Below are positions 784 to 22,653 of a stretch of DNA of 25,623 bases, piece by piece. Position 1 is the stretch's first letter. Every line of letters starts with the position of its first letter. The stretch is from a virus. Where the stretch lies: the IMG/VR virus record IMGVR_UViG_3300008217_000078, positions 1-25,623 of that record. The stretch is one strand, 5' to 3'. The position numbers and the translations under genes were made by a program. The notes beneath the pieces were generated by a model that did no database searches, was not told where the DNA came from, and worked only from the letters and a program-made list of their open reading frames with translations.

Positions 784-1002
784 CATGTGATTCTGTTTTA
801 ACAGTTTCACTAACCGCCAGATATAAGAATTTTTAAGCCCTTCCAGTTCTGTAAGAATATTTTCTAATTTTCTCAAACCGTTCTCGCTGATTTCTGGGGA
901 GTCTTTGAACGCTGCTAACTCTGCGGTGAGAGATCTAACCTTATCTAAGTCCACCTGATCTAGCTGGCCTTGCTTCTTTTTTAAGTCTTCTATATTTTTC
1001 AT
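775..1002 (-). CDS. 75-residue helical protein following the helicase (UvsW.1-like position)
   Basis: Small, charged, probably all-helical protein with heptad-like leucines over most of its length (for example RSLTAELAAF and LENILTELEGL). Its ATG overlaps the TGA of the UvsW-like helicase (ATGA), so it is probably translated by coupling to it. In T4 the helicase gene uvsW is followed directly by uvsW.1, a 76-residue protein. Equal size and position suggest a counterpart, although I cannot show sequence similarity by eye. It overlaps the small membrane-protein gene at its 3' end by 9 bp. The CDS is plausible because of the ATGA junction and tight packing; its function is unknown. Confidence 0.7.
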   Translation of the reverse strand: MKNIEDLKKKQGQLDQVDLDKVRSLTAELAAFKDSPEISENGLRKLENILTELEGLKNSYIWRLVKLLKQNHMLD

Positions 1003-2366
1003 AGTATTGTAATCTCGTGTCCTTCTTGTATATAATACTTCTTTCTTTTATTAGAGTGCATTTTTAGGTACTTTGCAGAATCTATAAAATCATAAATATA
1101 CACTTTCTCTTTACTGGGGTGAATTCTAAGTGCTCTACCCATAGCTTGTAGTGTGGCTATTTCTGATTTAAGTCCTCTAGCGTTGATGAAATGGGTTATC
1201 TCTTCTATATTAATACCTGTTTGTAAAATCTTAGTTCCTATAAGCACAGACGCTGAATTCTCGTTTAGAAAGTTTGTTATTACTTTATATCTATCACTTA
1301 GGTTATCATCCCCCCATAAACGGTAAGAGTTTGGAATTAGATCGTTTAATATTTGCGCGTGTTCTAATTGTTTTACCAAAATAAGAATCCGTGCTTCGTT
1401 ATTAGAATTACTTATTGAGCTAACAATCTCAGTAATTTTGTTATTTCTATCCTCATTCCTTATGATGAAGGTTTCGTATACATCTCCGTAAGACATATAT
1501 GCATCCTCTCCAGAAGTATTAGGCGTTTTAATTAATTGTATTAAAGGTTTTGACAGCTTTCCTTCTTCTACTAATCCAGAGGTTGAAGTGGTTTCCCAAA
1601 TAGGACCGAAGGCTCCTTCCAGATTAAACTTGGGTATGTCATCTGATGGCGGCGTAGCAGTTAAGCCAAACCTGTATTCGGCTTTTGGGAAAGAGTTTAT
1701 TGCTGCTAAGGTGGTCTTTCCATTAGCGAATTCGTGCACCTCATCCACCATAATCACTTCTGCTGTCTCAAGGTGGGTGTCTAATATTTTATCAATGCTT
1801 TGAACGGTACACAGCATTATATCCCCATAGATATACCCCTCTCCAAAACATAGCCCTACATTGTCAAATCCACAGGCATCTGTTAGAAATTCATAAGTTT
1901 GAGTTAGAAGCTGTTTTGCATTGAAAAGGATTACCATCTGTTTACCAAGTAACGCTTGGACTAATCCTGCCATAATTAAGGTTTTTCCTGACCCAGTTGG
2001 CGCTTTAATGATCCCCCTCTTGTTTTTTAGTGCTTTTTTTATTAGATCTTTTTGGAATGAATAGTAAGAAAAATCCGCAATTTCTTTAGTTTTTGGTGTT
2101 TTTTTAGTATTTTTGTAGGTGTGTTCTAGATCAGGAGTACATTCAATTCTATTTAAATCCCCCAGTATACGCTCTAGGAGGCCTGTTCTGAATACTCCTT
2201 TGTTATTTATATACCTTTGTTTTCCGTCCCAATGCCCTCTCCTGTAGGCGTGTGAAAACTCAGCTCCAGGAATTTTAAAAGTATATAATTCCGACAACGC
2301 TTTAATTAGTTTTGGGTTGTCAGTTTTAAGTTGGGACTTAAGGATTCCAATTTGTACCTTCATCAC
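999..2366 (-). CDS. uvsW: UvsW-like superfamily 2 DNA helicase
   Basis: 455-residue SF2 helicase, close to T4 UvsW (503 aa), which remodels branched DNA and R-loops in recombination-dependent replication. Motifs are in order: Walker A APTGSGKT at 122-129, motif II DEVH at 208-211, motif III TATP at 236-239, and motif VI QAMGRALR at 407-414. The first 100 residues, including GHWDGKQRYIN, precede the motor and match the place of UvsW's small DNA-binding domain. The frame can start at GTG (2366) or the next codon, ATG (2363), which is equally likely; neither has a good Shine-Dalgarno sequence. It is divergent from the gp26-like gene across about 29 bp and is followed by the 75-residue gene through an ATGA overlap. 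In T4, uvsW also lies near genes 25/26, so this neighbourhood may be an old synteny remnant. Confidence 0.95.
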   Translation of the reverse strand: MMKVQIGILKSQLKTDNPKLIKALSELYTFKIPGAEFSHAYRRGHWDGKQRYINNKGVFRTGLLERILGDLNRIECTPDLEHTYKNTKKTPKTKEIADFSYYSFQKDLIKKALKNKRGIIKAPTGSGKTLIMAGLVQALLGKQMVILFNAKQLLTQTYEFLTDACGFDNVGLCFGEGYIYGDIMLCTVQSIDKILDTHLETAEVIMVDEVHEFANGKTTLAAINSFPKAEYRFGLTATPPSDDIPKFNLEGAFGPIWETTSTSGLVEEGKLSKPLIQLIKTPNTSGEDAYMSYGDVYETFIIRNEDRNNKITEIVSSISNSNNEARILILVKQLEHAQILNDLIPNSYRLWGDDNLSDRYKVITNFLNENSASVLIGTKILQTGINIEEITHFINARGLKSEIATLQAMGRALRIHPSKEKVYIYDFIDSAKYLKMHSNKRKKYYIQEGHEITIL

Positions 2367-2395: not shown

Positions 2396-3172
2396 ATGCC
2401 AAATATTCCAGTAGAAAAAGTAACTATGCAAGATGGCAGTAAAGAGTCTATCATTGCAGGTATTTTAGAAAACCTACCGCCGCAAGAAGTTATTGAATTA
2501 AATCTTCCCTCTAAGGCTAGATTTTATTCGTTACCTGACCCAGCTAGACCCATTACTATGCGTTCAATGAATTTTGAAGATGAGAAGATGATTGCTTCAA
2601 TGAATTCTAGTCAGACTGATTCGACCGAAGACCCTTTAACCTCGATTCTTAAGAGATGTGTTGATAACTTAAATTTAAAGGATATCCTTATTGTAGATAA
2701 AGTTTATTTAATTTTGAAATTACGAGAAATCTCTTATGGAAATGAGTTTACTGCTAATGTAACATGTGCTGCTTGTCATAAAGCTACGCCTGTAGTCTTT
2801 GATTTGCGTAATCTTCCAATAAATTACTTTGAAGATGATTTCGATTACCCTATTGAAATAGAGCTTCCTGTAGCAAAGAAACAGGCAAAACTAAAACTCC
2901 CCACCGTATCAGATGAGCAGTTCTTGAAAGATGGGGGCCAAGCATTGAATCAACTATGGAGATTTATTGATTCAATTGATGGGCAAACTAACAAAGAAGT
3001 AATTTCGGAACTTCTTAATCTTCTCCCACTTAAAGATGTTCATGCTATGCTAGACGCTATTTCTGGGAATACATACGGGATACAAACTAAGGTTCAATTT
3101 CAGTGCTTTGAATGCAAGGAGAATGCAGTAATTGAATTGCCTATAACTCCTGATTTTTTTACCGTGAACTAG
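2396..3172 (+). CDS. 26: gp26-like baseplate hub/tail assembly protein, 0-frame product
   Basis: 258-residue protein with the layout of the T4 gp26 baseplate-protein family: the LPSKARFY entry motif (37-44), an acidic MNFEDEKM stretch (58-65), then LKLREISYGNEF (107-118) leading into a cysteine knuckle. Two CxxC pairs, C124/C127 and C237/C240, could bind one zinc. In T4, gp26 takes part in forming the baseplate hub. Start ATG with AGGAGA 5 nt upstream. The frame stops 9 nt after a run of seven T, where a -1 frameshift would add 62 residues (described separately). This suggests that the protein and its longer form act as a tail-assembly chaperone pair. The family is fairly certain; the chaperone role is inferred. 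Confidence 0.85.
   Translation: MPNIPVEKVTMQDGSKESIIAGILENLPPQEVIELNLPSKARFYSLPDPARPITMRSMNFEDEKMIASMNSSQTDSTEDPLTSILKRCVDNLNLKDILIVDKVYLILKLREISYGNEFTANVTCAACHKATPVVFDLRNLPINYFEDDFDYPIEIELPVAKKQAKLKLPTVSDEQFLKDGGQALNQLWRFIDSIDGQTNKEVISELLNLLPLKDVHAMLDAISGNTYGIQTKVQFQCFECKENAVIELPITPDFFTVN
3154..3160 (+). promoter_or_regulatory. Slippery heptamer T_TTT_TTT for -1 ribosomal frameshifting
   Basis: Seven consecutive T residues, phased as T TTT TTT in the gp26-like frame (codons D253-F254-F255), fit the X_XXY_YYZ rule. The -1 frame has a TGA at 3151-3153, immediately before the run. The 0 frame stops at 3170-3172. Any switch must therefore occur in this short interval, and this run is the only slippery sequence in it. 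Confidence 0.75.
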
Positions 3173-3348
3173 AAGAGAATTTATCATTAAATTCTTTACT
3201 TCTAGAAGCCTATATACTCGTACACAAGGTAGGTTTTACCTATTCTGATGTTAGAAGTTTGTCTAGAGCTGAGAGACTGACATTTATTAGCTTTTTTGAA
3301 GAAGAAGTAAAACAGCAAAATGAGGCTATACGCAATACTGGAAGGTAA
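3154..3348 (+). CDS. -1 frameshift extension of the gp26-like protein (no start codon of its own)
   Basis: Open frame in -1 phase to the gp26-like gene, bounded by TGA at 3151 and TAA at 3346-3348. It contains no ATG or GTG and no early TTG, so independent translation is very unlikely. Read through the T7 run, it gives ...PDFF-YRELEENLSL... and a fusion of about 317 residues, of which 62 are new. The added part is helical, with EAYILVHKVGFTYSDV, then SLSRAERLTFI and a charged EEEVKQQNEA tail. That pattern of aromatic helix, 'L..xER..FI', then acidic/lysine helix is common in the T-type extensions of phage tail-assembly chaperones. It fills the gap up to the next gene, whose Shine-Dalgarno sequence lies at its end. 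The alternative is one missing T from a sequencing or mutational indel. Confidence 0.8.
   Translation, partial: FFYRELEENLSLNSLLLEAYILVHKVGFTYSDVRSLSRAERLTFISFFEEEVKQQNEAIRNTGR
3169..3205 (+). other. Possible frameshift-stimulating stem-loop
   Basis: CTAGAAG (3169-3175) is perfectly complementary to CTTCTAG (3199-3205), giving a 7-bp stem with a 23-nt AU-rich loop. The stem begins 8 nt after the slippery heptamer, within the spacing usual for -1 frameshift stimulators. It is weak thermodynamically (3 GC pairs), and CTTCTAGAAG is itself a palindrome, so a local duplex between transcripts is another reading. Confidence 0.4.
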
Positions 3349-3351
3349 AAT

Positions 3352-4302
3352 ATGGTTCAATTAGGAAGTTACAACGCAAGTGATAGGCATAACCGCCCCA
3401 ATACTTTACAAAAGGTTCTGCTTAGAGCATTTTTTATTAATGATGGCGCTTATCAAGATCCAGTTGATATAAGCGGAGTAACGATTGTTACAAAGGTTTC
3501 AAATACTTCTCCCGCAACTATTTTAGGCTCCGACGAACTACTCTCAACAGATTTGTCGCAGAGCCAGATTCTTATGCAATTTGGGGGCTTTGCGTCAGGT
3601 CTTGCATCAACTTCTTATACTCCAGTAGTAAACGCAAGTGGGATTTATAAATTTGGAACTGGCGAATACGGCGTAGTTCTGGATAATACTCTATCCTTAT
3701 CTGGGTGGTATGATTTTAATGGATCAGCTTTTGAGGTGGCTAACGCAGCCTCTGCTACTGGAAACTATCTTGATGTTTGGACCGCTAAGCTAGCTGGAGG
3801 GTCGAATTATAAGAGCATCATAAACGAGTTTACTCTTTATGCTGATACCTTCTTTACCATGACCCAGCCTCTGATGCTTAAATCAAGTAACAGATTGGTC
3901 AACAAGCACTTAACTTTAGGCTCTAAAACAGATCTAAAATTCACCACTGAGATTACTGTTGAGAATAAGGATATTGATGAGTCTGTCAAGAACATATTCA
4001 AAGACTCCGTTATCACCAGCGCCATGGTCGAAATTTCCAAAATTAACGACTCCGTTAACTTGCCCTCCCGTGTTGAGGTTTCTGGCTTCTCAGATACAGC
4101 TGCCTTGATAGATGTAACCTCTGATAACACTATAATCTTTACCTGGGATACAGAGGATATTAGGAATCTAGGAACTACAGCAATTGAGCAGACAAAACGA
4201 GAAAATCTTGGCAGCCCTACAGGGACTTATGCAGCCAGAGTCAGCTATAACTTGCTAAATGAAAAAATTATAAGCCCCTTATTTCACTTTATAGTGAGTT
4301 AA
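3352..4302 (+). CDS. Probable virion structural protein of unknown fold
   Basis: 316-residue protein with the low-cysteine, Ser/Thr/Asn-rich, beta-strand-rich composition of phage structural proteins. It has no signal peptide or membrane segment. The first 120 residues contain the short motif SGVTIVTKVSN and a glycine/serine stretch. The second half has alternating strands around FTTEITVENKDIDESVKN and ends in FHFIVS. GGAAGG (3340-3345) lies 6 nt upstream of the ATG and inside the end of the frameshift extension, so the gene is probably coupled to the gp26-like operon. I do not recognise the family. Position between the tail-assembly gene and the tape measure suggests a tail or baseplate component. 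It converges on the primase gene with a 14-bp overlap inside a hairpin. Confidence 0.85.
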   Translation: MVQLGSYNASDRHNRPNTLQKVLLRAFFINDGAYQDPVDISGVTIVTKVSNTSPATILGSDELLSTDLSQSQILMQFGGFASGLASTSYTPVVNASGIYKFGTGEYGVVLDNTLSLSGWYDFNGSAFEVANAASATGNYLDVWTAKLAGGSNYKSIINEFTLYADTFFTMTQPLMLKSSNRLVNKHLTLGSKTDLKFTTEITVENKDIDESVKNIFKDSVITSAMVEISKINDSVNLPSRVEVSGFSDTAALIDVTSDNTIIFTWDTEDIRNLGTTAIEQTKRENLGSPTGTYAARVSYNLLNEKIISPLFHFIVS

Positions 4303-4305
4303 GGG
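4276..4305. terminator. Bidirectional hairpin over the convergent 3' ends
   Basis: CCCTTA (4276-4281) pairs with TAAGGG (4300-4305), and TCACT (4284-4288) pairs with AGTGA (4293-4297) around the tetraloop TTAT. The two stems are separated by a 2x2 internal loop. Downstream is T-rich on both sides: ACTTCTTCATTTT on plus, and GCTTATAATTTTTT on minus. The hairpin contains the stop codons of both convergent genes. Intrinsic termination in both directions is a reasonable reading. Confidence 0.6.
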
Positions 4306-5293
4306 ACTTCTTCATTTTGTAGCTGTAATCATACTTTTGTTGATTAGTTTCAGCGTAGTCTTTTAAATCTACTCCTGAAATGTGAGCTTCGTTCCAATCT
4401 TTAAATTCCGTAGGCGGGTGAAGAATATAAAAACTATTCATTAGTTTTCTCTTCCGTAGCTGGTCTGATTTTTCTATCCCCCTGTAGCCAGCCTCGTCAT
4501 TGTCATATCCTAATACAACCCTACCAGGGAAGTGCCGTAGAATATCCATTTGTAACTCGGATATGTGAGATCCCAAAGTACAGGTCGCGTTGACACCTCG
4601 GATTTGCAGAGATATAGCGTCCAGGGGTCCTTCACAAACTACTAGTTGAGAGGATTCCTCGTCGTAAGGAAATAACATAGCGGAAGGGCGCAAGCCTGTA
4701 GTGGATAGGGGATTTAAATACTTAGGCTCTAAACCCTCTTTTAGACTCCTGGCTTGGAAATAAAATATACTATTATTTTCTATAAAAGGAATTATTAATC
4801 TGTCCCTGTATCTGCCTTTATCAGTAACAAAATACTGTTGCTGCTCTGGGTTATCGAAATTAAACAATTTTCGATCCATAAGGAACAGCCAAGCATCAGG
4901 GTAATCATCATATGATTCTGGTAGAACTTCAAATAGTTTTGTATCTTCAAGTCCGTTTGTTTGAGGCAAGACCTCTATAGCATCTAATAGATCCGATTCA
5001 TCTAGGATCTGATCCCCAGACATAAGAAAACTTTTGAATAGGAGTTCTGCCTGAGCTTTCTTGTAAGTAACCTTCTCTAATTCTGAGTATAGCTTAACGA
5101 AGCTCCCAACATTCCCCGTCTTGAAGCATTGCCAAAGTCCAGTATCCAAATTGATGCTCATGTGACACTTCCAGTCATCCTCTATAAATATAGACGGGAC
5201 AACTAGTTCTTTATTGGAAGCAGAAATTTTCCCAGATTCTGCAAACTTTTCCAGAAGATAGTCTCTAATATATGCGGAGGTGACCATGTTCAT
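4289..5293 (-). CDS. DnaG/gp61-type DNA primase with TOPRIM domain
   Basis: 334 residues from the ATG at 5293, near the length of T4 primase gp61 (342). The frame is open upstream to a TTG at 5314, and another ATG lies at 5287; no Shine-Dalgarno sequence decides among them. The core region has RDRLIIPF (about 163-170) and PKYLNP, as in DnaG. The TOPRIM signature follows: CEGPLD (E221, D225) and DNDEAG (D264, D266), which hold catalytic Mg2+. The N-terminal zinc-ribbon region is degenerate. LWQCFKTG (C56) stands where DnaG has CFxCG, and the usual preceding CPxH pair is absent. It would make RNA primers for lagging-strand synthesis, normally with a gp41-type helicase that is not in this window. 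The 5' end overlaps the divergent nuclease gene; the 3' end overlaps the structural gene by 14 bp. Confidence 0.88.
   Translation of the reverse strand: MNMVTSAYIRDYLLEKFAESGKISASNKELVVPSIFIEDDWKCHMSINLDTGLWQCFKTGNVGSFVKLYSELEKVTYKKAQAELLFKSFLMSGDQILDESDLLDAIEVLPQTNGLEDTKLFEVLPESYDDYPDAWLFLMDRKLFNFDNPEQQQYFVTDKGRYRDRLIIPFIENNSIFYFQARSLKEGLEPKYLNPLSTTGLRPSAMLFPYDEESSQLVVCEGPLDAISLQIRGVNATCTLGSHISELQMDILRHFPGRVVLGYDNDEAGYRGIEKSDQLRKRKLMNSFYILHPPTEFKDWNEAHISGVDLKDYAETNQQKYDYSYKMKKSLNSL
5276..5280 (+). promoter_or_regulatory. Strong Shine-Dalgarno GGAGG that decides the nuclease start
   Basis: GGAGG at 5276-5280 stands 5 nt before the ATG at 5286. An in-frame GTG at 5280 overlaps this site and would have no Shine-Dalgarno sequence of its own, so the ATG is preferred. 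The site lies inside the coding start of the divergent primase gene. Confidence 0.7.
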
Positions 5294-6059
5294 CAATACA
5301 ATATCAGAGTCCAAATACTCAACTTTTCGACAGTGTAAATTAAAATATAGATATCGGTATATTGATCGGTATGAAGAAGATAAGAATACAAATACTGATG
5401 CTTTACATTTTGGATCTTATATTCATAAGATTCTTGAAGAAGGAGTAGAATCTACAACCTTTTCAGAACTAGAGCAAATAGCAGAAAGTCTTAAGACTAA
5501 TTATACTTTTAACGATTCTTATCTTCCTAAGATTAATATTTGTATTAAAAACTTTTTGAAGTTTAATGCTTCTATTACAGGAACAGTCGCTACTGAATTA
5601 GTTTATGAGGTTGAAGCTAAAGGAGACATTACGCTTAACGGTATTATTGACCGTGTGGTAAAAGGAAGAGATGACGGTTATTTAATTATTGATTATAAAA
5701 CTTCAAAAAGAGAAAAGAGCAAGATGGATCTTTATAAAGACACCCAACTCAAGGGTTACTGCTATGCAATTCACAAGCTTTATAATGTTCCAATAGATCA
5801 AATAACTGTTGCCCACTACTACCCTCTTACTGATAACCTAGTAACTTGCCGATACAGCAGCACCCAGATTCACAATTACCTAAAGATGATAGTTGATGAA
5901 GTTTGGCGGATTAGGAAACTTAAGAAGGTTGATTTTTGCCCAAGTGAGAATCAGTTTTGCAACTGGTGTGCATATAAATCAATCTGCCCCGTTTTCAGTG
6001 ACCCGAACGAGGTCGAGGGCAGACTCCAAGAACGAAAGAAACGCTCTAAGAGGAAGTAG
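5286..6059 (+). CDS. Cas4/RecB-like PD-(D/E)XK nuclease with Fe-S cysteines
   Basis: 257-residue nuclease of the Cas4/AddB-RecB type. Numbered from this ATG, the active-site elements are H47 (FGSYIHK), D122 (GIIDR), D136-x-K138 (IIDYKT) and the downstream Q154/Y158 motif (QLKGY). Four cysteines frame the fold as in the 4Fe-4S members: C17 near the N-terminus (FRQC), then C225, C228 and C234 (FCNWCAYKSIC). Such enzymes process DNA ends. In phages they are found among replication/recombination genes, and some are linked to interference with host CRISPR or degradation of host DNA. The exact role here is unknown. The C-terminus is very basic (ERKKRSKRK). It is divergent from the primase, overlapping its 5' end, and overlaps the minus-strand 101-residue gene by 14 bp. 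Confidence 0.9.
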   Translation: MFINTISESKYSTFRQCKLKYRYRYIDRYEEDKNTNTDALHFGSYIHKILEEGVESTTFSELEQIAESLKTNYTFNDSYLPKINICIKNFLKFNASITGTVATELVYEVEAKGDITLNGIIDRVVKGRDDGYLIIDYKTSKREKSKMDLYKDTQLKGYCYAIHKLYNVPIDQITVAHYYPLTDNLVTCRYSSTQIHNYLKMIVDEVWRIRKLKKVDFCPSENQFCNWCAYKSICPVFSDPNEVEGRLQERKKRSKRK

Positions 6060-6828: not shown

Positions 6829-8922
6829 ATGGCAGCACCACTATTAGGAGTACTAGGAAAACTTAGTAGCAGCGTACAGGCAAATACAGCCAAATTGGGT
6901 ACGCTCGCGTCTCTCTTTGGTGATGCTGTTAAAATGCAAACGGCAGCTATCCGCGTTAGTCGGGATATGGGTTCCATCATGGAGAAGGTTGGTAACCTAT
7001 CCAAGGACCTTCCTGCTGGTATAGCAATAGAAACTGAAGCAACTATTGCTGGTATGGAGGCTGGCTTCAGGACATACAACGGGAGCATAAACAAGCTTTG
7101 GACCCAGATGAAGCTTACTGGGCAAAACTCAGCAGCTATGATGAGGCAGTTTAAGAACCTAGAATCTATTACTGGTTTGTCAAATGAAGCTCTTGGAAGC
7201 GTGGCAGAAAAAACTCTTGAGCTAAGTGATACCTATGGGGTTACAACTGAAAGTGTTGTTCAAAGTTTGGGAGCGCTGAGTAAGTCTATTGAAGAAAACT
7301 CCAATATACAGCTTCTTCAAGGAAATAAAGGAGAGGCCTTAACTACTGCTTTAGCTGAAGCAGGAGCGCAACTTGGGCCTGGGTATGAAAAACAACTAAG
7401 TGCATTCGCGCAAATGCTAACTTCTGGTGATGAGGCGGCATTTAGGATGAGATCTTTGGCTGGGTTACAAGATGTGGCGGCTAAGATTGCTAATAATACA
7501 ATAACCGCAGAAGAGCTACTAGCCGCTAACGAAAAAGCCGCCCAATTTACCAGAGACACAATAGGACCAGCTGCGACAACCGGGGCCGTGGCCTCTTATG
7601 GAACTGAACAGGTTATGGGTGCTGTGGCTGGGAATCAGGCGAAGGCTCTACAGGCGAGTCTTAAAATGAGTGAGCAGTTTGCTAAGGGATTAAGTGATGA
7701 GCAAAAAGCTGAAAACTTAGCTAATGCTAAACGAAAAGAGTTTAGTGAAAGCCTTCAAGCCCTTGGTACGAAAACACTAGCTCCTTGGAAAGACATTTTT
7801 ATATCTAATTTTGATAAATTTATGGGTATATTAACCCCTATATTTGGTATTCTTCAAGATCTTGGTTCTTTCGCTAGTACACATATAGGACCAATTCTAT
7901 CTATTCTAGCGGCTGTTACGGAAGTAGCGGTAGGATATATAAGACAATTAGTGACCTTTGGAGAAGGTATATATGAGGAAGTTAGACCAGTACTTATTTC
8001 TATGTCTAAATGGTTATTTGAATTTGTTCAAAAATTTGCTATTATTTTTCGTAATGTTTGGACATTTTTAAAGCCTATATTTATTGGGATCTGGGAAGGG
8101 GTAGTGGGAATGTTAAAAGCTATGGCTGGTCCTATCATGCAATGGATAGATAAGGTAATAGGTTTTTGGGCCGCATTGTCACCAGTTATTATGTCAATAG
8201 CTACAATTTTAGCAGCAAGTTTTAAATTTATCGGAGGTTTTATTGGCAAAATTGTAGGATGGTTTTTTAGTGTATTGGGACCAATATTAGAGTTTATGGG
8301 CAAAGCTTTTGGATTTATTATAAATGTATTGGGACCTATTTTTATGACAATAGCTAAGACTTTAGCAATAGGTTTTAAATTTATCGGAGGTTTTATTAGC
8401 AAAATTGCAGGATGGTTGTTTAGTGTAGCGGGATCAGTAATGGAGTTTATTGGAAAAATACTGTCAGAAATGCGGGTTCTCTTCCTCAATATGGTTAAAA
8501 TGCTAGGACACATAAGGGACTGGTTCCCTGGGGATGGGGGTAAGAAAATTATAAAATGGGCTGAGGCGGAATTAAGGAAAGACGGGCAAGGACCACAAGA
8601 AAAGCAGGTAGAGATTTTCACTAGCATAGAAGATCTGCTGGCGAGTGTAAAGGGATCCACAGAGAAAGTGGCTGAAGAGGGGGTAGAGATTAAAGAGAAG
8701 GCAGTAAGTGTTCTTGGTGTTTCTCAGGACGCTCTGGCTGTAGCAATAGCTGGTATTGTACAGGAGCCCTTCTCAGAAATAGTGGCAATGAATGAAACTC
8801 TAGTAGACGCAATAGATGACCAGACTGGAGTACTAGCGGCTGCGGCCAGCGAAACAACTGAGGCTACCAAAGCACGAATAGCAGGTGGACCAGGACCAAA
8901 ACAACAATTAGCACAGGAATAA
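6829..8922 (+). CDS. Tail tape measure protein
   Basis: 697-residue tape measure, the helical protein that fills the tail tube and sets its length. At about 0.15 nm per residue this would give a tail near 100 nm, similar to T4 (an estimate, not a measurement). The N-terminal 315 residues are Ala/Gln/Glu-rich helix. Residues 319-555 are a long hydrophobic region with many Ile/Phe/Gly, typical of tape measures and thought to interact with the membrane during ejection. The C-terminal 140 residues are again polar and acidic, ending GPGPKQQLAQE. Two 51-residue repeats lie in the hydrophobic part. No lysozyme, lytic transglycosylase or peptidase motif is visible. The downstream order (tube initiator, gp53, hub, spike) supports the call. 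Confidence 0.9.
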   Translation: MAAPLLGVLGKLSSSVQANTAKLGTLASLFGDAVKMQTAAIRVSRDMGSIMEKVGNLSKDLPAGIAIETEATIAGMEAGFRTYNGSINKLWTQMKLTGQNSAAMMRQFKNLESITGLSNEALGSVAEKTLELSDTYGVTTESVVQSLGALSKSIEENSNIQLLQGNKGEALTTALAEAGAQLGPGYEKQLSAFAQMLTSGDEAAFRMRSLAGLQDVAAKIANNTITAEELLAANEKAAQFTRDTIGPAATTGAVASYGTEQVMGAVAGNQAKALQASLKMSEQFAKGLSDEQKAENLANAKRKEFSESLQALGTKTLAPWKDIFISNFDKFMGILTPIFGILQDLGSFASTHIGPILSILAAVTEVAVGYIRQLVTFGEGIYEEVRPVLISMSKWLFEFVQKFAIIFRNVWTFLKPIFIGIWEGVVGMLKAMAGPIMQWIDKVIGFWAALSPVIMSIATILAASFKFIGGFIGKIVGWFFSVLGPILEFMGKAFGFIINVLGPIFMTIAKTLAIGFKFIGGFISKIAGWLFSVAGSVMEFIGKILSEMRVLFLNMVKMLGHIRDWFPGDGGKKIIKWAEAELRKDGQGPQEKQVEIFTSIEDLLASVKGSTEKVAEEGVEIKEKAVSVLGVSQDALAVAIAGIVQEPFSEIVAMNETLVDAIDDQTGVLAAAASETTEATKARIAGGPGPKQQLAQE
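8191..8496 (+). repeat. Tandem 153-bp duplication inside the tape-measure gene
   Basis: Units 8191-8343 and 8344-8496 (51 codons each) both begin with an ATG-led M(S/T)IA motif and share FKFIGGFI-x-KI-x-GW. About 25 of the first 40 residues match. The cores 8221-8274 and 8374-8427 differ at only three of 54 bases, so the duplication is fairly recent or has been kept uniform by gene conversion. Confidence 0.85.
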
Positions 8923-16721: not shown

Positions 16722-18337
16722 TGGTTTTTTCTGGGACAGTAACATCGGATTTTGAAAAGCTCGTAGTAATTCCAGACGCTAAGAAATCTGAATTTATTGA
16801 TTTTGCGGCTACGGATTTTTCGACTATTCGAAATGCCTTACTTGAATATATCAAAGCAGTTTACCCGCTTGAATATAAAAACTTTAATGAATCAGACCTA
16901 GGTATAATGTTAATTGAATTAATATCTTACATGGGCGCAGTGATGTCTTTGAAAGCAGATATGCTTGCAAATGAAAACTTTTTACGAACGGCTAGAAATA
17001 GAAATAATATACAGAAATTGCTTGAATTAATTGGGGTTAAAATGAAAGGCCCAACTGCCTCAGTTGCACAAGCAAAACTAACTCTAAATTCTGATCCAAC
17101 TTTCGGTGGTGATCTTTCTGACCCCACAAAACTAAAAATTCTCCCTTCTGATCGGACAATATCGGTTACTTCTCCCTTAGATGGTGGACCTGTGAACTAT
17201 ACTGTGTATAAAGTAGTGAATGGTCTGTTAGATTTAGCTAATGATGGGGGCTATATCGAATTGGATGGAGCTACAGAATCAGACAATCCTACTACGACCA
17301 GCAGCGTTTATACAAATCTGGCTTTATTAGAAGGAGGTTTAGTTACAGTAAATGGCACTTTTGATACAACTGATTCTATAAAGAAAATTAATCTAACAGA
17401 GAATCCCGTAATTGAAGGTAGTGTTGAACTATTTGTAGGAGGAACCTTAACTGCGGCATCTGGAGCTTATAAGCAAGTACACAATATCTTCTTTGCTTCT
17501 GGGGCAACGGATAATATTTTTGAAGTTGTATATGATGATGATTTTAAAGCAACTATAGTGCTTGGGGACGGGATTGCTGGGACATCTCCTCCAGCAGGCG
17601 CTAGTTATTATGCAACTTATCGCGTGGGAGGAGGGAAACGAGGTAATATACCCAGTGAGCATATTAATATTGCTATTAGTGTATTAGATGATACTATTCC
17701 AATATCATCAGATTTAGAAAATATTACTTTAGCTACAGGAGGAGCGGACGCTGAAACTACAGAACACGCTAAAAAGTATGCTCCCCTAACCTTTAGGAGA
17801 CAAGATAGATTAGTAACCTTATTTGATTATACTGTTTTTTGTAATGCTTATGTTGGTCCTTTAGGAACAATTGGTAAAGCAAAAGCTGTTACAAGAAATG
17901 CGTTTAGTTCTGCCAATGTTATTGATTTATATGTACTTGAAAAAGCAAGTAGTTCTCAACTACAAAGAGCTACAACTTCTTATAAAAAAGCTTTATTAAC
18001 TGCGGTTAATGAGAAAAAAATGATAACAGATGAAGTTGTACTTGTTGATGGGCTTATTAGAACCCTTGATTTAGTTGTCACTATTAAATTAGATAAAATA
18101 CTTGCCCCCAAAGAAGAGAGTATAAAACAAGCAGCTAGAGAGAAAATTGTAAATTTCTTTATGGTTGATAATTTCGATTTCGGAAAAGCTCTTTCCTTGG
18201 CAGATTTAAATAGAACAATTTTTGAAATACCAGATGTACGGTTCTCTTCTGTTGATAATCTTGATTATGATGTTAAAGTTGATTTTAATGAAATTATTCA
18301 ACTTAATAATTTAACTATTAATGTTGACCTAGTTTGA
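16721..18337 (+). CDS. 6: Baseplate wedge protein gp6 (baseplate J-like)
   Basis: 538-residue wedge protein. Evidence is the N-terminal module YKNFNESDLGIMLIELISYMGAVMSLKADMLANENFL (about 52-90), typical of gp6/Mu gp47/P2 gpJ. Also typical are RRQDRLVTLFDYTVFCNAYVGPLGTIGKAKAV (about 358-388) in the middle and the C-terminal FDFGKALSLADLNRTIFEIPDVRF (about 485-508). Dimers of this protein form the iris that holds the baseplate ring together and opens on contraction. T4 gp6 is 660 aa, so this is a shorter form. It is directly downstream of gp25 (taATG) and ends in a TTGA overlap with the next gene. Confidence 0.95.
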   Translation: MVFSGTVTSDFEKLVVIPDAKKSEFIDFAATDFSTIRNALLEYIKAVYPLEYKNFNESDLGIMLIELISYMGAVMSLKADMLANENFLRTARNRNNIQKLLELIGVKMKGPTASVAQAKLTLNSDPTFGGDLSDPTKLKILPSDRTISVTSPLDGGPVNYTVYKVVNGLLDLANDGGYIELDGATESDNPTTTSSVYTNLALLEGGLVTVNGTFDTTDSIKKINLTENPVIEGSVELFVGGTLTAASGAYKQVHNIFFASGATDNIFEVVYDDDFKATIVLGDGIAGTSPPAGASYYATYRVGGGKRGNIPSEHINIAISVLDDTIPISSDLENITLATGGADAETTEHAKKYAPLTFRRQDRLVTLFDYTVFCNAYVGPLGTIGKAKAVTRNAFSSANVIDLYVLEKASSSQLQRATTSYKKALLTAVNEKKMITDEVVLVDGLIRTLDLVVTIKLDKILAPKEESIKQAAREKIVNFFMVDNFDFGKALSLADLNRTIFEIPDVRFSSVDNLDYDVKVDFNEIIQLNNLTINVDLV

Positions 18338-21300
18338 CCGACAAGTTCCCAGTCTCCAGACCATCTATGGTCGGCCCTTCTAAGAAGGCGAATTACAAAA
18401 GAAATTTTGTAAATGCTTTAGAAATTATTACGCCTGGGGTCTATCTTGAAGAGGATGTTGCACTTAGCTCCAATAGGCTTAATCCAATATCAGAAATACT
18501 AAACTCACATATGGTGGCTGCTAATAATGTCTCAGCTATAGGTCTTGGTATTTCTGCGACAACAAATTATGGACATCTAAGTAGTGTAGATGGGATTTCC
18601 AATTATTTTATTCCGCAAAATAGATTAACAAATATCTCTCCTTTCGATTTTGAAAAATATATACTCAAACCTAATAATTATAGGTTTAGTGATTTTACTT
18701 CTAGCGCAGATTTTAAAAACTTTGTTGATAGCACTCTACTTCCAAATGCAAGATTAAATACTCCCAACGCTGGCACATATGATAGTACCATTACAGGAAC
18801 ACATGAATACTTAATTAAGAATCTTTCTTGGTTGTACTTTTTGAACACCTCTGCTCACGGTAGTTTAGCCACAGACCCATCTTCTATTGTTAGTGACCTT
18901 ATTGTTAAAAATATTTTTACAGGAGTTACTCTTACTTTGGAAGAGGCTCTCCCAGCATTTGCAGAGTATATTTGGAAAAATTACGAAACTTGTTCAACAT
19001 TTAGAAGTCTTCAATTAATTCCTAATGATTTTCTAGCAGGCACAGGAACTTACACAAGCGGTACGCAGCAACTAGATAAGCTTAAAACTTTAGTTTCTGT
19101 TTTATATTCTAGTTCTGAAACTGATAAACAAGATTTACATATAAAAACAGCTTTTGATAATTTTATAACTGCGTCTATTATATTGGATGATACAGAATCC
19201 AATGGTCCTTTTTATAAGTTTATAAAAGCTTTAGGCTTTTATCTTTCTGATCTTAATGAAGAAACGCAAAAATTATCACTTATATATGATATACAGAATG
19301 TACCAGAAGAGTACCTTGAGTTAGTTGCTGAGTTAATTGGATGGAGATTCTTCGGGCCTGATCCTGATCGCTGGAGAGTACAGTTGCAAAGTGCGGTTAA
19401 TATTTATAAAGCTACTGGTACTAAAAAAGCGTTGCAATATGGTATTGATTCAATTTTTGCGCAGGGAACTTATAATATAGAAAATAATATTACAGAGGTT
19501 TATGAATCCTATATTCCTTTTCTACTGTATTATGCTTTGGCAACAGAATCACCTCTCTACACTTCATTAAATGATTATACTTTACAAAAAGCTATTGATT
19601 TAAATATTGCCGAATATAACTCCTCCTCATTAACTGGTAATATTGAACTAGCGGTTGACCATATTATCTTACAGCTAGTTAAGTTTTTTCCTGAATATTT
19701 TCCTTTTGGAAAGGGAACTTTCCCAACCTTCTTTGGCGATCTTGAGGTTATAAGTACTGGAGAAGCTCACGAAGGTTCTCACTTCTTTGAGCAGGGAAAG
19801 GTGTGGGCTGGGGATCCTCCCCTATCTTCTTCAAGTATTGAATTGCAGTACAAGGGGGATGAAAATTTCAAATTTAATTATCGTGACCGCACATTCCCCA
19901 TACCCCCGTTTGAAGAATATAAGTACTATAAAGATGCATATGTAACAGAATCAATGTTGCTTATGATTGTTGATATACTGACCTGTACTTTTGGTGTGCG
20001 TAAACAGTTTGCTTTAGAGCTTGCAGATCATATCCGTACCTATACTAATAATCAAAATGGAGATTTGCTTTACCTTGATAATGGGTGGTTATTTTTTACA
20101 GAAAACTTAGTTACTCCTACTAATGAAGATTATCTTTTTAAATGGATTGGAAATGAAGCGAATGTCTCAGGATTAGAGGATAAGGATAAGTATATCAGTT
20201 TATGGAACGGCAAATCATCTCATATTAAAATACTTCTTGATGCTGATTCCTTTGATTTTACAAGTGATGATTTGGATATAAATGGATCTCAATTATTATT
20301 TCAAATAGCTAGAGTTGTTAACGATTTTATCCCAGCACATGCTATTCCAGATCTTTATCTTAGTACTTCCGCGATAGATGATGAAGTAATAACCGATACG
20401 AGTGCAATTGGATTGCATTTTGATAAACGAGAATACTTTGCTGGTTTTAGTCCTAGTGCGTTAGCTTTTGCTAGGGGAGGAATTTATGGTACAAACTTCC
20501 ATAGTAGTGGTAATGCTTTTGGTCGTAAAGCTGTAAATACCGTTCGTGATTTATCCCAAGAAGACGCAACAGGAGCAGCAGATGATCCCATAATTGCTCA
20601 CAGGACAGCATGGCGAAGACGCAATTATAAAAACAGTCTTCCTAAGGACGGGTACTATGACCGTACTGGCTTTAATATGCCAAACAGTTTTGAAGCTTCA
20701 ACATTAGAAAAGACTACTGTATCGTCATTGGGATTTTTACCTTTAGGATATATTTCGTATAATGGAATTTATCAAAACGCCGCTGATGTTAATAATCTTC
20801 ATGCTGTTTGGGATCCATGTGAAAACTTAGATTCGTCTAATACCTTTTTTGAAGCCGACACAAGTAACACCTTCCCATGTCGTGGTTTATTGACCCAGCC
20901 TGTGTCATCGAACTATTACAATAACCGAGGTCAGCTCCATGAGTCTATTGCTCTTATGCATAGACTTAATGAAAAAAAGAAATTTGTTGAATCTGAAAAG
21001 ATTTTATTGGAGAATTTTGAAGATTTTGCTCCATCAGCTGATTGGGTAAATCAAGTTCTAAGTATTGCTAATAGCGGAACTAATGCAAATACTTTTGGTC
21101 CGAACTCTGAAGATGAGTGGTATAACTTTGCATGGGGTAGAGGTATTCAAAAATTATATAAAGATTATATGAACTCTAGTAAATTTGATAGACATCATAC
21201 CAGACCAGACCTTCTAACGAATTTGTCTGGCGGTCCTGATATAATATCACATACTTACACAGGAGCACTGCATAATGGATACTTTAATATTAATGGCTCT

Positions 21301-22653
21301 GGGGTAAATGCTAACCCTTATTCAGCCTTGGTAGCTTCTTCTTTTGCTACCTCCGATAGTTTACATATTGGCTACGATGATGGTTCTGGAATTCTTAGCT
21401 TCCTTACAATAGATGAAGCGATTTTTGGAACAAGTTCTGTAAGCTCCTTAAATGAAAGTGGAGTATTTGATGGATCCAATTTAATTCTATCTGATTTATC
21501 ATCAATCTTTCAAGTTGAATTACGAAATTCACATATACTAAGCGGTGTGGAATTTGTTATTACAGCTGAATCTTTAATAAATCCAGATAATGGTTTTAGA
21601 ATTTTTGAAGTTGATCCTATCTATGCTAACCAAACTTCGGATAATTATTTAATTAAAAATAGAGTAATTAAGTGCAAAAATATAGATGGACTTACTAGAT
21701 TACGGTTCCCAATTAAGGGAAATTACGGAGTATTGAAAGATAATTTCTTAATTCCTGAACACGAATATGAAGTATCTATTAATCATTTAGTTGGTGAAGA
21801 AGCAGGTACTAGTTTTGGTGGTGCATCATTAGGCGTATTCATTCATACGCAGCCAGAAGGAGATCAAGATCTATTTTGGATTTGGTCACCTGAGGGTGAG
21901 TGGGTAATGTCGGATGCTTCTGCTATTAATAAAACTGCTGTACTTGAGAAGTATTCTCATGTAAATACTTTACCTGTTATTATTCCTCCACCAGAAATTT
22001 CAGATTTCTCTTCCATAAATACAACCCTTGGGTGTATAGATGAGTTTGAAGTAGATAGTTCGGCTAATGTAAACAATAATCCTGCTGCCTTGAAAAAGAT
22101 AACTGAATCTGATTTTTCAAAATTTAATATAAAATTCGATACTTTTAATCAACCTATAGCTGTTCCTCCAAAATATTATGGAATTGGAGGTGTTGGTCAC
22201 TGTTCAGGTAATGGGGCTATAGAACAAGTACATAGGCTAAATCAAGCTTATGTTTTTGAAGTTTATATGATGCCTAATTATCAAAATCTAGAGAAATATT
22301 TACTATTAGATTATGTTTCTGTCAAAGACCTAACCTTACAGGATAGGGCTAAGATTAAACTACCTATAAGTAATGAAGTACTAACTCCAGAAGAGCTGGG
22401 TACGCCTTTTAATCCTTACTGTAGAGGACAAAAAGAGATAGTCTTGGAGCCAGATGAATTATTAACTATCCTACGCTTCTTTAATAAGATGGTAGATGAT
22501 AGAGGTAGTCGCGATGCCGCTGTAACTGCTTCTACTTTTGAAACTGGTGGCGGTAGTAGGTTGAACTACAGGGAACATCCTAAGTGGGATGAAATAATAA
22601 CAGCAGCTGATGCCAATCATGGGCAGCTGACATCAATTCAGGTAGATAATTAA
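18334..22653 (+). CDS. Giant gp7/P2 gpI-like baseplate wedge protein
   Basis: 1439 residues if started at the TTG of a TTGA overlap with gp6. The first ATG is at 18367, eleven codons later, and neither has a Shine-Dalgarno sequence. At about 320-375 there is a segment of the tail protein I type: VPEEYLELVAELIG, then DRWRVQLQSAVNIYKATGTKKALQYGI ('..R..L..A...Y..KGT..AL'). This family occupies the place of T4 gp7, which binds gp6 and gp25 in each wedge. The remaining 1000 residues are beta-rich with few charged repeats, and no catalytic motif is recognised. The gene is much longer than P2 gpI (176 aa) and longer than T4 gp7 (1032 aa), so it probably also builds the baseplate periphery or fibre attachment. 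Its stop overlaps the next start (taATG). Confidence 0.82.
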   Translation: MTDKFPVSRPSMVGPSKKANYKRNFVNALEIITPGVYLEEDVALSSNRLNPISEILNSHMVAANNVSAIGLGISATTNYGHLSSVDGISNYFIPQNRLTNISPFDFEKYILKPNNYRFSDFTSSADFKNFVDSTLLPNARLNTPNAGTYDSTITGTHEYLIKNLSWLYFLNTSAHGSLATDPSSIVSDLIVKNIFTGVTLTLEEALPAFAEYIWKNYETCSTFRSLQLIPNDFLAGTGTYTSGTQQLDKLKTLVSVLYSSSETDKQDLHIKTAFDNFITASIILDDTESNGPFYKFIKALGFYLSDLNEETQKLSLIYDIQNVPEEYLELVAELIGWRFFGPDPDRWRVQLQSAVNIYKATGTKKALQYGIDSIFAQGTYNIENNITEVYESYIPFLLYYALATESPLYTSLNDYTLQKAIDLNIAEYNSSSLTGNIELAVDHIILQLVKFFPEYFPFGKGTFPTFFGDLEVISTGEAHEGSHFFEQGKVWAGDPPLSSSSIELQYKGDENFKFNYRDRTFPIPPFEEYKYYKDAYVTESMLLMIVDILTCTFGVRKQFALELADHIRTYTNNQNGDLLYLDNGWLFFTENLVTPTNEDYLFKWIGNEANVSGLEDKDKYISLWNGKSSHIKILLDADSFDFTSDDLDINGSQLLFQIARVVNDFIPAHAIPDLYLSTSAIDDEVITDTSAIGLHFDKREYFAGFSPSALAFARGGIYGTNFHSSGNAFGRKAVNTVRDLSQEDATGAADDPIIAHRTAWRRRNYKNSLPKDGYYDRTGFNMPNSFEASTLEKTTVSSLGFLPLGYISYNGIYQNAADVNNLHAVWDPCENLDSSNTFFEADTSNTFPCRGLLTQPVSSNYYNNRGQLHESIALMHRLNEKKKFVESEKILLENFEDFAPSADWVNQVLSIANSGTNANTFGPNSEDEWYNFAWGRGIQKLYKDYMNSSKFDRHHTRPDLLTNLSGGPDIISHTYTGALHNGYFNINGSGVNANPYSALVASSFATSDSLHIGYDDGSGILSFLTIDEAIFGTSSVSSLNESGVFDGSNLILSDLSSIFQVELRNSHILSGVEFVITAESLINPDNGFRIFEVDPIYANQTSDNYLIKNRVIKCKNIDGLTRLRFPIKGNYGVLKDNFLIPEHEYEVSINHLVGEEAGTSFGGASLGVFIHTQPEGDQDLFWIWSPEGEWVMSDASAINKTAVLEKYSHVNTLPVIIPPPEISDFSSINTTLGCIDEFEVDSSANVNNNPAALKKITESDFSKFNIKFDTFNQPIAVPPKYYGIGGVGHCSGNGAIEQVHRLNQAYVFEVYMMPNYQNLEKYLLLDYVSVKDLTLQDRAKIKLPISNEVLTPEELGTPFNPYCRGQKEIVLEPDELLTILRFFNKMVDDRGSRDAAVTASTFETGGGSRLNYREHPKWDEIITAADANHGQLTSIQVDN

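Follow-up and report, generated by a model that had tools for sequence, protein, structure and literature searches.

A gp26-like gene of an uncultured contractile-tailed phage probably encodes short and long forms of a tail-assembly chaperone through a −1 frameshift

The gene at positions 2396–3172 of the window (the whole 25,623-base fragment of an uncultured virus that was analysed here) very probably encodes, to judge from its sequence, the tail-assembly chaperone (TAC) of a contractile-tailed phage, made as a short form and, by a −1 frameshift, as a long form. A programmed −1 shift on this gp26-like gene had been proposed in an earlier, sequence-only reading of the same DNA, and comparative support for it is strong, since the arrangement recurs in 80 of 80 relatives and in 80 of 80 cyanophage loci and the −1 frame is under purifying selection. 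The idea of a frameshifted TAC gene is not new: the identification of TAC genes in T4-like phages dates from 2022 (Vladimirov, Gautam & Davidson, Virology 566:9-15, as cited in PMC12846349 and PMC10885494), so that the window gene, as far as these citing papers relate the discovery, belongs to an already described family and is a divergent addition to it.

The window possesses a contractile-tail module that includes, besides the gp26-like protein, the tape measure protein and gp53-, gp25- and Baseplate_J-like genes. A UvsW-like helicase gene (999–2366, minus strand) lies just upstream of the chaperone gene, and a Toprim/DnaG-like primase fragment (4289–5314, minus strand) and a PD-(D/E)XK (Cas4-like) nuclease gene (5280–6059, plus strand) are located between the chaperone gene and that of the tape measure protein. 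The baseplate region contains an ORF of 1439 aa (18334–22653) that begins with TTG and matches no Pfam family; searches for Rfam families and tRNA genes found none in the window.

The product of the plus-strand gene 2396–3172, the putative short form (TAC-N), is 258 aa long and matches the Pfam family PF12322 T4_baseplate (E = 1.5e-20; 74.3 bits against a Pfam gathering cut-off of 24.5) and phrog_150, baseplate hub (4.7e-24). Two CxxC pairs in it point to possible zinc binding. No relative with a solved structure was found for the short form by sequence; the AlphaFold model (pLDDT 85.9) gave, for residues 29–115, a top structural match to B. subtilis YqbN (PDB code 3KLU) with a Z-score of 5.9, a value in the range under 8 where, as the tool warns, a match may reflect a merely common arrangement, and the next match scored 3.3. 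YqbN is an XkdN-like phage tail chaperone, and its resemblance to the modelled short form is thus consistent with a TAC-N fold, although the match is weak.

The end of the short form (3151–3172) reads TGATTTTTTTACCGTGAACTAG. The sequence-only reading described it correctly in the main: the 0 frame ends in GAT TTT TTT ACC GTG AAC TAG, with the stop codon at 3170–3172 on the plus strand terminating the short form; the seven Ts at 3154–3160 form a slippery heptamer whose phase, T_TTT_TTT, suits a tandem slip into the −1 frame; and the −1 frame, blocked by TGA at 3151–3153, is open from 3154 to the TAA at 3346–3348. The 7-bp stem envisaged 8 nt downstream was placed properly and does form the base of a structure, but its extent was understated, as the RNA folds into a 15-bp stem with one 3-nt bulge (3169–3205, plus strand; MFE −13.8 kcal/mol, z −4.96), in which 3169–3183 pair with 3188–3195 and 3199–3205. 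A spacer of 8 nt (3161–3168) separates the hairpin from the slip site. This hairpin is likely to be the stimulator of the −1 shift.

A search of viral contigs with the window protein alone found no relative, and an alignment of eight sequences was too diverged to serve as a query; a two-sequence alignment of the window protein and LR756511 retrieved 80 relatives of 28–58% identity. The alignment of homologues proposed in the sequence-only reading bears out the conservation of heptamer, −1 frame and extension: TTTTTT[T/C] stands in phase 10–46 nt before the stop codon, together with a −1 extension of the same family, in all 80. The heptamer cannot be attributed to chance, because among the other ORFs of 100 aa or more in these loci, used as a control, only 3 of 499 contain an in-phase T6[T/C] within 50 nt of the stop. 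In most relatives it is T6C and not T7. Within the window clade the consensus of the extension is FFxxEL...LLLEAYILVKxxxFTYxDVKxMTRxERxxFLxLL. Among cyanophage gp26 loci, collected with S-RIM8 as the query, TTTTTTC lies exactly 10 nt before the stop and is accompanied by a homologous −1 extension in 80 of 80. A T6 site with a −1 extension is also present in MED4-213, Pelagibacter phage Mosig, BUCT-ZZ01, Stenotrophomonas phage Moby, Rhizobium phage RHph_I46, Vibrio phage K571, VH7D, Aeromonas phage AsFcp_2, OLIVR5, ORM_20, Atu_ph07, XacN1 and LR756511.

A run of seven Ts is a classic place for a sequencing or assembly error, and a lost or extra T in the homopolymer might have split one intact gene. 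The same two-frame layout in 80 of 80 independent contigs, most with T6C in place of T7, and again in the 80 cyanophage loci and in isolate genomes, refutes such an indel error, which had been named beforehand as the outcome that would count against a frameshift, and leaves it a negligible probability. The run could in principle also provoke slippage of the RNA polymerase, so that the fusion would originate in transcription and not on the ribosome; the six Ts followed by C in most relatives, the strict tandem-codon phase and the position of the window hairpin at the ribosomal spacing of 8 nt make this very improbable.

Selection on the −1 frame was estimated for the region past the 0-frame stop in 626 pairs of window relatives with 70–97% nucleotide identity. 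The synonymous substitution that was to be looked for in the −1 part is evident, with a dN/dS of 0.143 (pN 0.138, pS 0.568) in this frame against 1.01 in the 0 frame and 1.96 in the +1 frame. The cyanophages show the same contrast among frames (−1 frame: pN 0.141, pS 0.745). Their codon usage around the site is also uniform: the codon preceding the Phe pair has T as its last base in 80 of 80 sequences, and the first Phe codon of this hinge is TTT in 80 of 80, compared to 72% TTT elsewhere in these genes, counts which come from related sequences and are not independent. Hairpins recur 3′ of the heptamer in relatives (mean z −1.24; 19 of 53 below −2), but some relatives have only a weak one or none at all. 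It is the heptamer that never varies, the hairpin being an accessory that differs from one relative to another.

The region of the −1 frame between 3154 and 3348 (plus strand) comprises 64 codons and TAA and is assigned, from the dN/dS values, a family match to phrog_634 and a helical model, to a putative TAC-C domain similar to the C-terminal domain of gp51. The model is a compact, small helical domain with a pLDDT of 91.5. The sequence-only reading had found no start codon in this frame, and indeed there is neither ATG nor GTG; one TTG does occur at 3259, past the halfway point. The matter bears on whether the extension might be a separate small gene, ‘gp51’, as which public cyanophage records annotate it, translated by ribosomes that re-initiate close to where the gp26-like gene stops. 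It is annotated separately in S-RIM8, MED4-213 and Mosig, and a stop/start overlap exists in Moby, RHph_I46 and K571, as well as in VP-1 and D528, which have no heptamer. Among 61 distinct window-clade sequences, however, none contains ATG or GTG within codons 1–12 of the extension, and these codons belong to the conserved domain, so re-initiation cannot yield the whole domain; moreover, the heptamer is retained in all 80 relatives, and the homologous T4 gp51 is a fusion. Re-initiation is therefore given very little probability here, and both it and sequencing error are excluded as general explanations. The assertion that a frameshift at this gene is not standard annotation holds: cyanophage records list the extension as a separate ‘gp51’ of 45–54 aa, and the records of SP-15 and LIS04 miss it. 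The tiny ‘gp51’ genes of cyanophages and the unannotated gaps in other phages are thus to be annotated as the second half of a frameshifted chaperone.

The Ackermannviridae-type gp26 ends of VP-1, Salmonella phage SP1 and Vibrio phage D528 are without the heptamer, and in VP-1 and D528 the −1 extension comes after a TAATG stop/start overlap; these two phages may therefore use re-initiation or a different slip.

Used alone, the window extension gave no tblastn match in the phage collection, no significant Pfam match, no match to phrog_634 and, in a Foldseek search of viral models, nothing at E < 0.001; the Foldseek matches at E 0.1–3 include P-HM1 Gp51, the ZZ1 ‘baseplate hub assembly catalyst’ and tail-assembly chaperones, and are suggestive only. 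Family-level comparisons are more informative. PF12322 matches both T4 gp26 (8.8e-64) and T4 gp51 (3.9e-52), and gp51 has an extra C-terminal stretch, with phrog_634 (‘baseplate hub assembly catalyst’) matching its residues 147–246. The same phrog_634 matches the −1 extension of ORM_20 (3.5e-9) and, within the window extension family, 30 of 45 members (best 5.2e-6). Hhalign gave 93.9% for the window-clade against the T4-superfamily extensions, 95.8% for the T4-superfamily extensions against the C-termini of T4 and RB43 gp51, and 80.5% for the window-clade extensions against these C-termini; the lone T4 gp51 C-terminal sequence aligned weakly with the window family profile (16%). Judging from such profile comparisons, the window extension and the C-terminal part of T4 gp51 are homologues.

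T4 gp26 and gp51 are paralogues, one corresponding to the short form and the other to the short form plus the extension. Complete genomes of T4 and RB43 have two PF12322 genes, and each of the 13 other phages examined has one; T4, with gp26 short and gp51 extended, thus keeps the two forms on separate genes, where a single gene would supply both in the window. The guess that the state of the window is related to T4 genes 26 and 51 stands in its essentials, since gp51 is a gp26-like domain fused in frame to the same kind of extension and T4 gp26 lacks a slippery site; the two genes are adjacent, as had been supposed, but lie on opposite strands. The T4 gp26 gene ends in GAG TTC TTT GAG TTA CTA TAA, where the Phe pair is present and the slippery site is gone. 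G-T frameshifting has been described as conserved in long-tailed phages ‘except T4’ (2016 review, PMC5009743), and the explanation of this seeming exception to the lambda-type G/GT frameshifting, namely that short and long forms are two paralogous genes, is strengthened by these data. VH7D and AsFcp_2 are Straboviridae with a single PF12322 gene and a preserved T6C site, so the two-gene state of T4 is not universal in this family.

Most ribosomes would terminate at the TAG at 3170–3172 and release TAC-N of 258 aa. The hairpin at 3169–3205 would pause a minority whose Phe-tRNAs occupy TTT TTT at 3155–3160; these would slip one base backwards and read ...PDFF-YRELEENL... up to the TAA at 3346, giving TAC-NC of about 317 aa. 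On the model of lambda gpG/gpGT, TAC-N may coat the tape measure protein, and the small helical C-terminal domain of TAC-NC may recruit tail-tube subunits; neither form would need to stay in the virion. The anatomy of the site, its conservation, the coding selection on the −1 frame and the homology of the parts to T4 gp26 and the gp51 C-terminus are shown by the sequences; we infer the occurrence of shifting in the window gene, its rate, and, from lambda (PMC5009743), the presumed contacts of the chaperone with the tape measure and the tube. The expected client is encoded at 6829–8922 on the plus strand (phrog_167, tail length tape measure, 4.3e-6). About 3.5 kb separates it from the gp26-like gene in the window, with the primase-like, nuclease and other genes in between.

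The protein might, alternatively, be a chaperone of the baseplate hub only, with two forms that do not act on the tape measure; T4 gp26 and gp51 are classically named hub assembly chaperones (PMC3004832). In SP-15 and LIS04, however, the gp26-like gene is situated exactly between the tail tube and tape measure genes, the canonical place, and the scheme of short and long isoforms is that of tape-measure chaperones, so a role confined to the hub appears unlikely. The T4 hub contains the tape measure protein gp29, and the hub and tape-measure descriptions may therefore be compatible.

The frameshifted tail-assembly chaperone of the window can be compared with several known systems. It shares with the T4-like gp26 (TAC-N)/gp51 (TAC-NC) family the PF12322 short form and the homologous C-terminal extension, and the cyanophages and other single-gene groups have, as in the window, a −1 site, of the T6C type; T4 differs in having two genes and no shift. 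The short form of the window is approximately 17–20% identical to that of cyanophages and represents a divergent lineage of uncultured phages, to which the frameshifted-chaperone scheme is hereby extended. Genes 26 and 51 are reportedly named in the abstract of the 2022 study of Vladimirov, Gautam and Davidson. Some T4-like phages have one short and one long fused gene, according to the summary of that study in PMC10885494, and PMC12846349 states that slippery poly-T runs are known from the TAC-N genes of T4-like phages. The TAC genes of Vandenendeviridae and Andersonviridae, e.g., that of phage Adele (PMC12846349), likewise have a −1 shift at a run of Ts and an extension missed by annotation, but their slippery motif is GTTTTT. 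Lambda gpG/gpGT resemble the window proteins in comprising a short form and a rare long form made by a −1 frameshift near the gene end; no sequence relation was detected between them, and the window site is poly-T and its short form contains two CxxC pairs. In lambda the slip occurs at GGGAAAG. Two candidate relatives of the T domain were considered, P2 GpE and the contractile-injection-system family DUF6760; the extension gave no Pfam match to them, and a scan of bacterial genomes with the SP-15 protein yielded no relatives, so that a relationship to either is not claimed here.

The relatives in SP-15, LIS04 and Streptococcus phage GXN1 form a sister clade; of its members with the stop covered, all but one distant hit (−1, T7) have the extension in the +1 frame. 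Among 27 distinct ends of the clade, 22 have the Phe codon TTT at the second position of the hinge, which is F-F or a variant of this pair, and the next codon begins with C in 19. Where this codon is Arg CGN, it is CGT in 14 of 17 cases, compared to 41 of 311 Arg codons (13%) elsewhere in the genes. Between SP-15 and LIS04 the +1 frame has a pS of 0.94 and a pN of 0.29, and the order is reversed in the other frames. The usual slip site of the clade is GAR TTY TTT CGT. A −2 slip was considered as its general mechanism and rejected, because TTC TTT, present in many members, does not allow re-pairing after a shift of −2. The TTT CGT site with its +1 extension is similar to the +1 site of influenza A PA-X, UCC_UUU_CGU (PMC8310308), from which it differs in genes, hosts and ribosomes, and the resemblance concerns the sister clade and not the window. 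No description of UUU CGU frameshifting in phages was found in the literature searched, and the +1 extension at UUU_CGU in the clade of Bacillus phage SP-15 and Listeria phage LIS04 is possibly new.

We lean, by a narrow preference, to the view that one orthologous chaperone family switched the direction of its frameshift at the conserved C-terminal Phe-Phe hinge, with a −1 shift at U_UUU_UUY for the window clade and for the T4 superfamily, a +1 shift at UUU_CGN for the Thornevirus clade (SP-15/LIS04/GXN1) and none after duplication in T4 and RB43; the hinge dipeptide would be the reason why slippage arose repeatedly. The +1 variant would make these phages a natural series in which a recoding site changes direction and the protein products are kept. 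A subgroup of the SP-15 clade ends in TTA TTT AAT CCC AGT instead and may shift at CCC.
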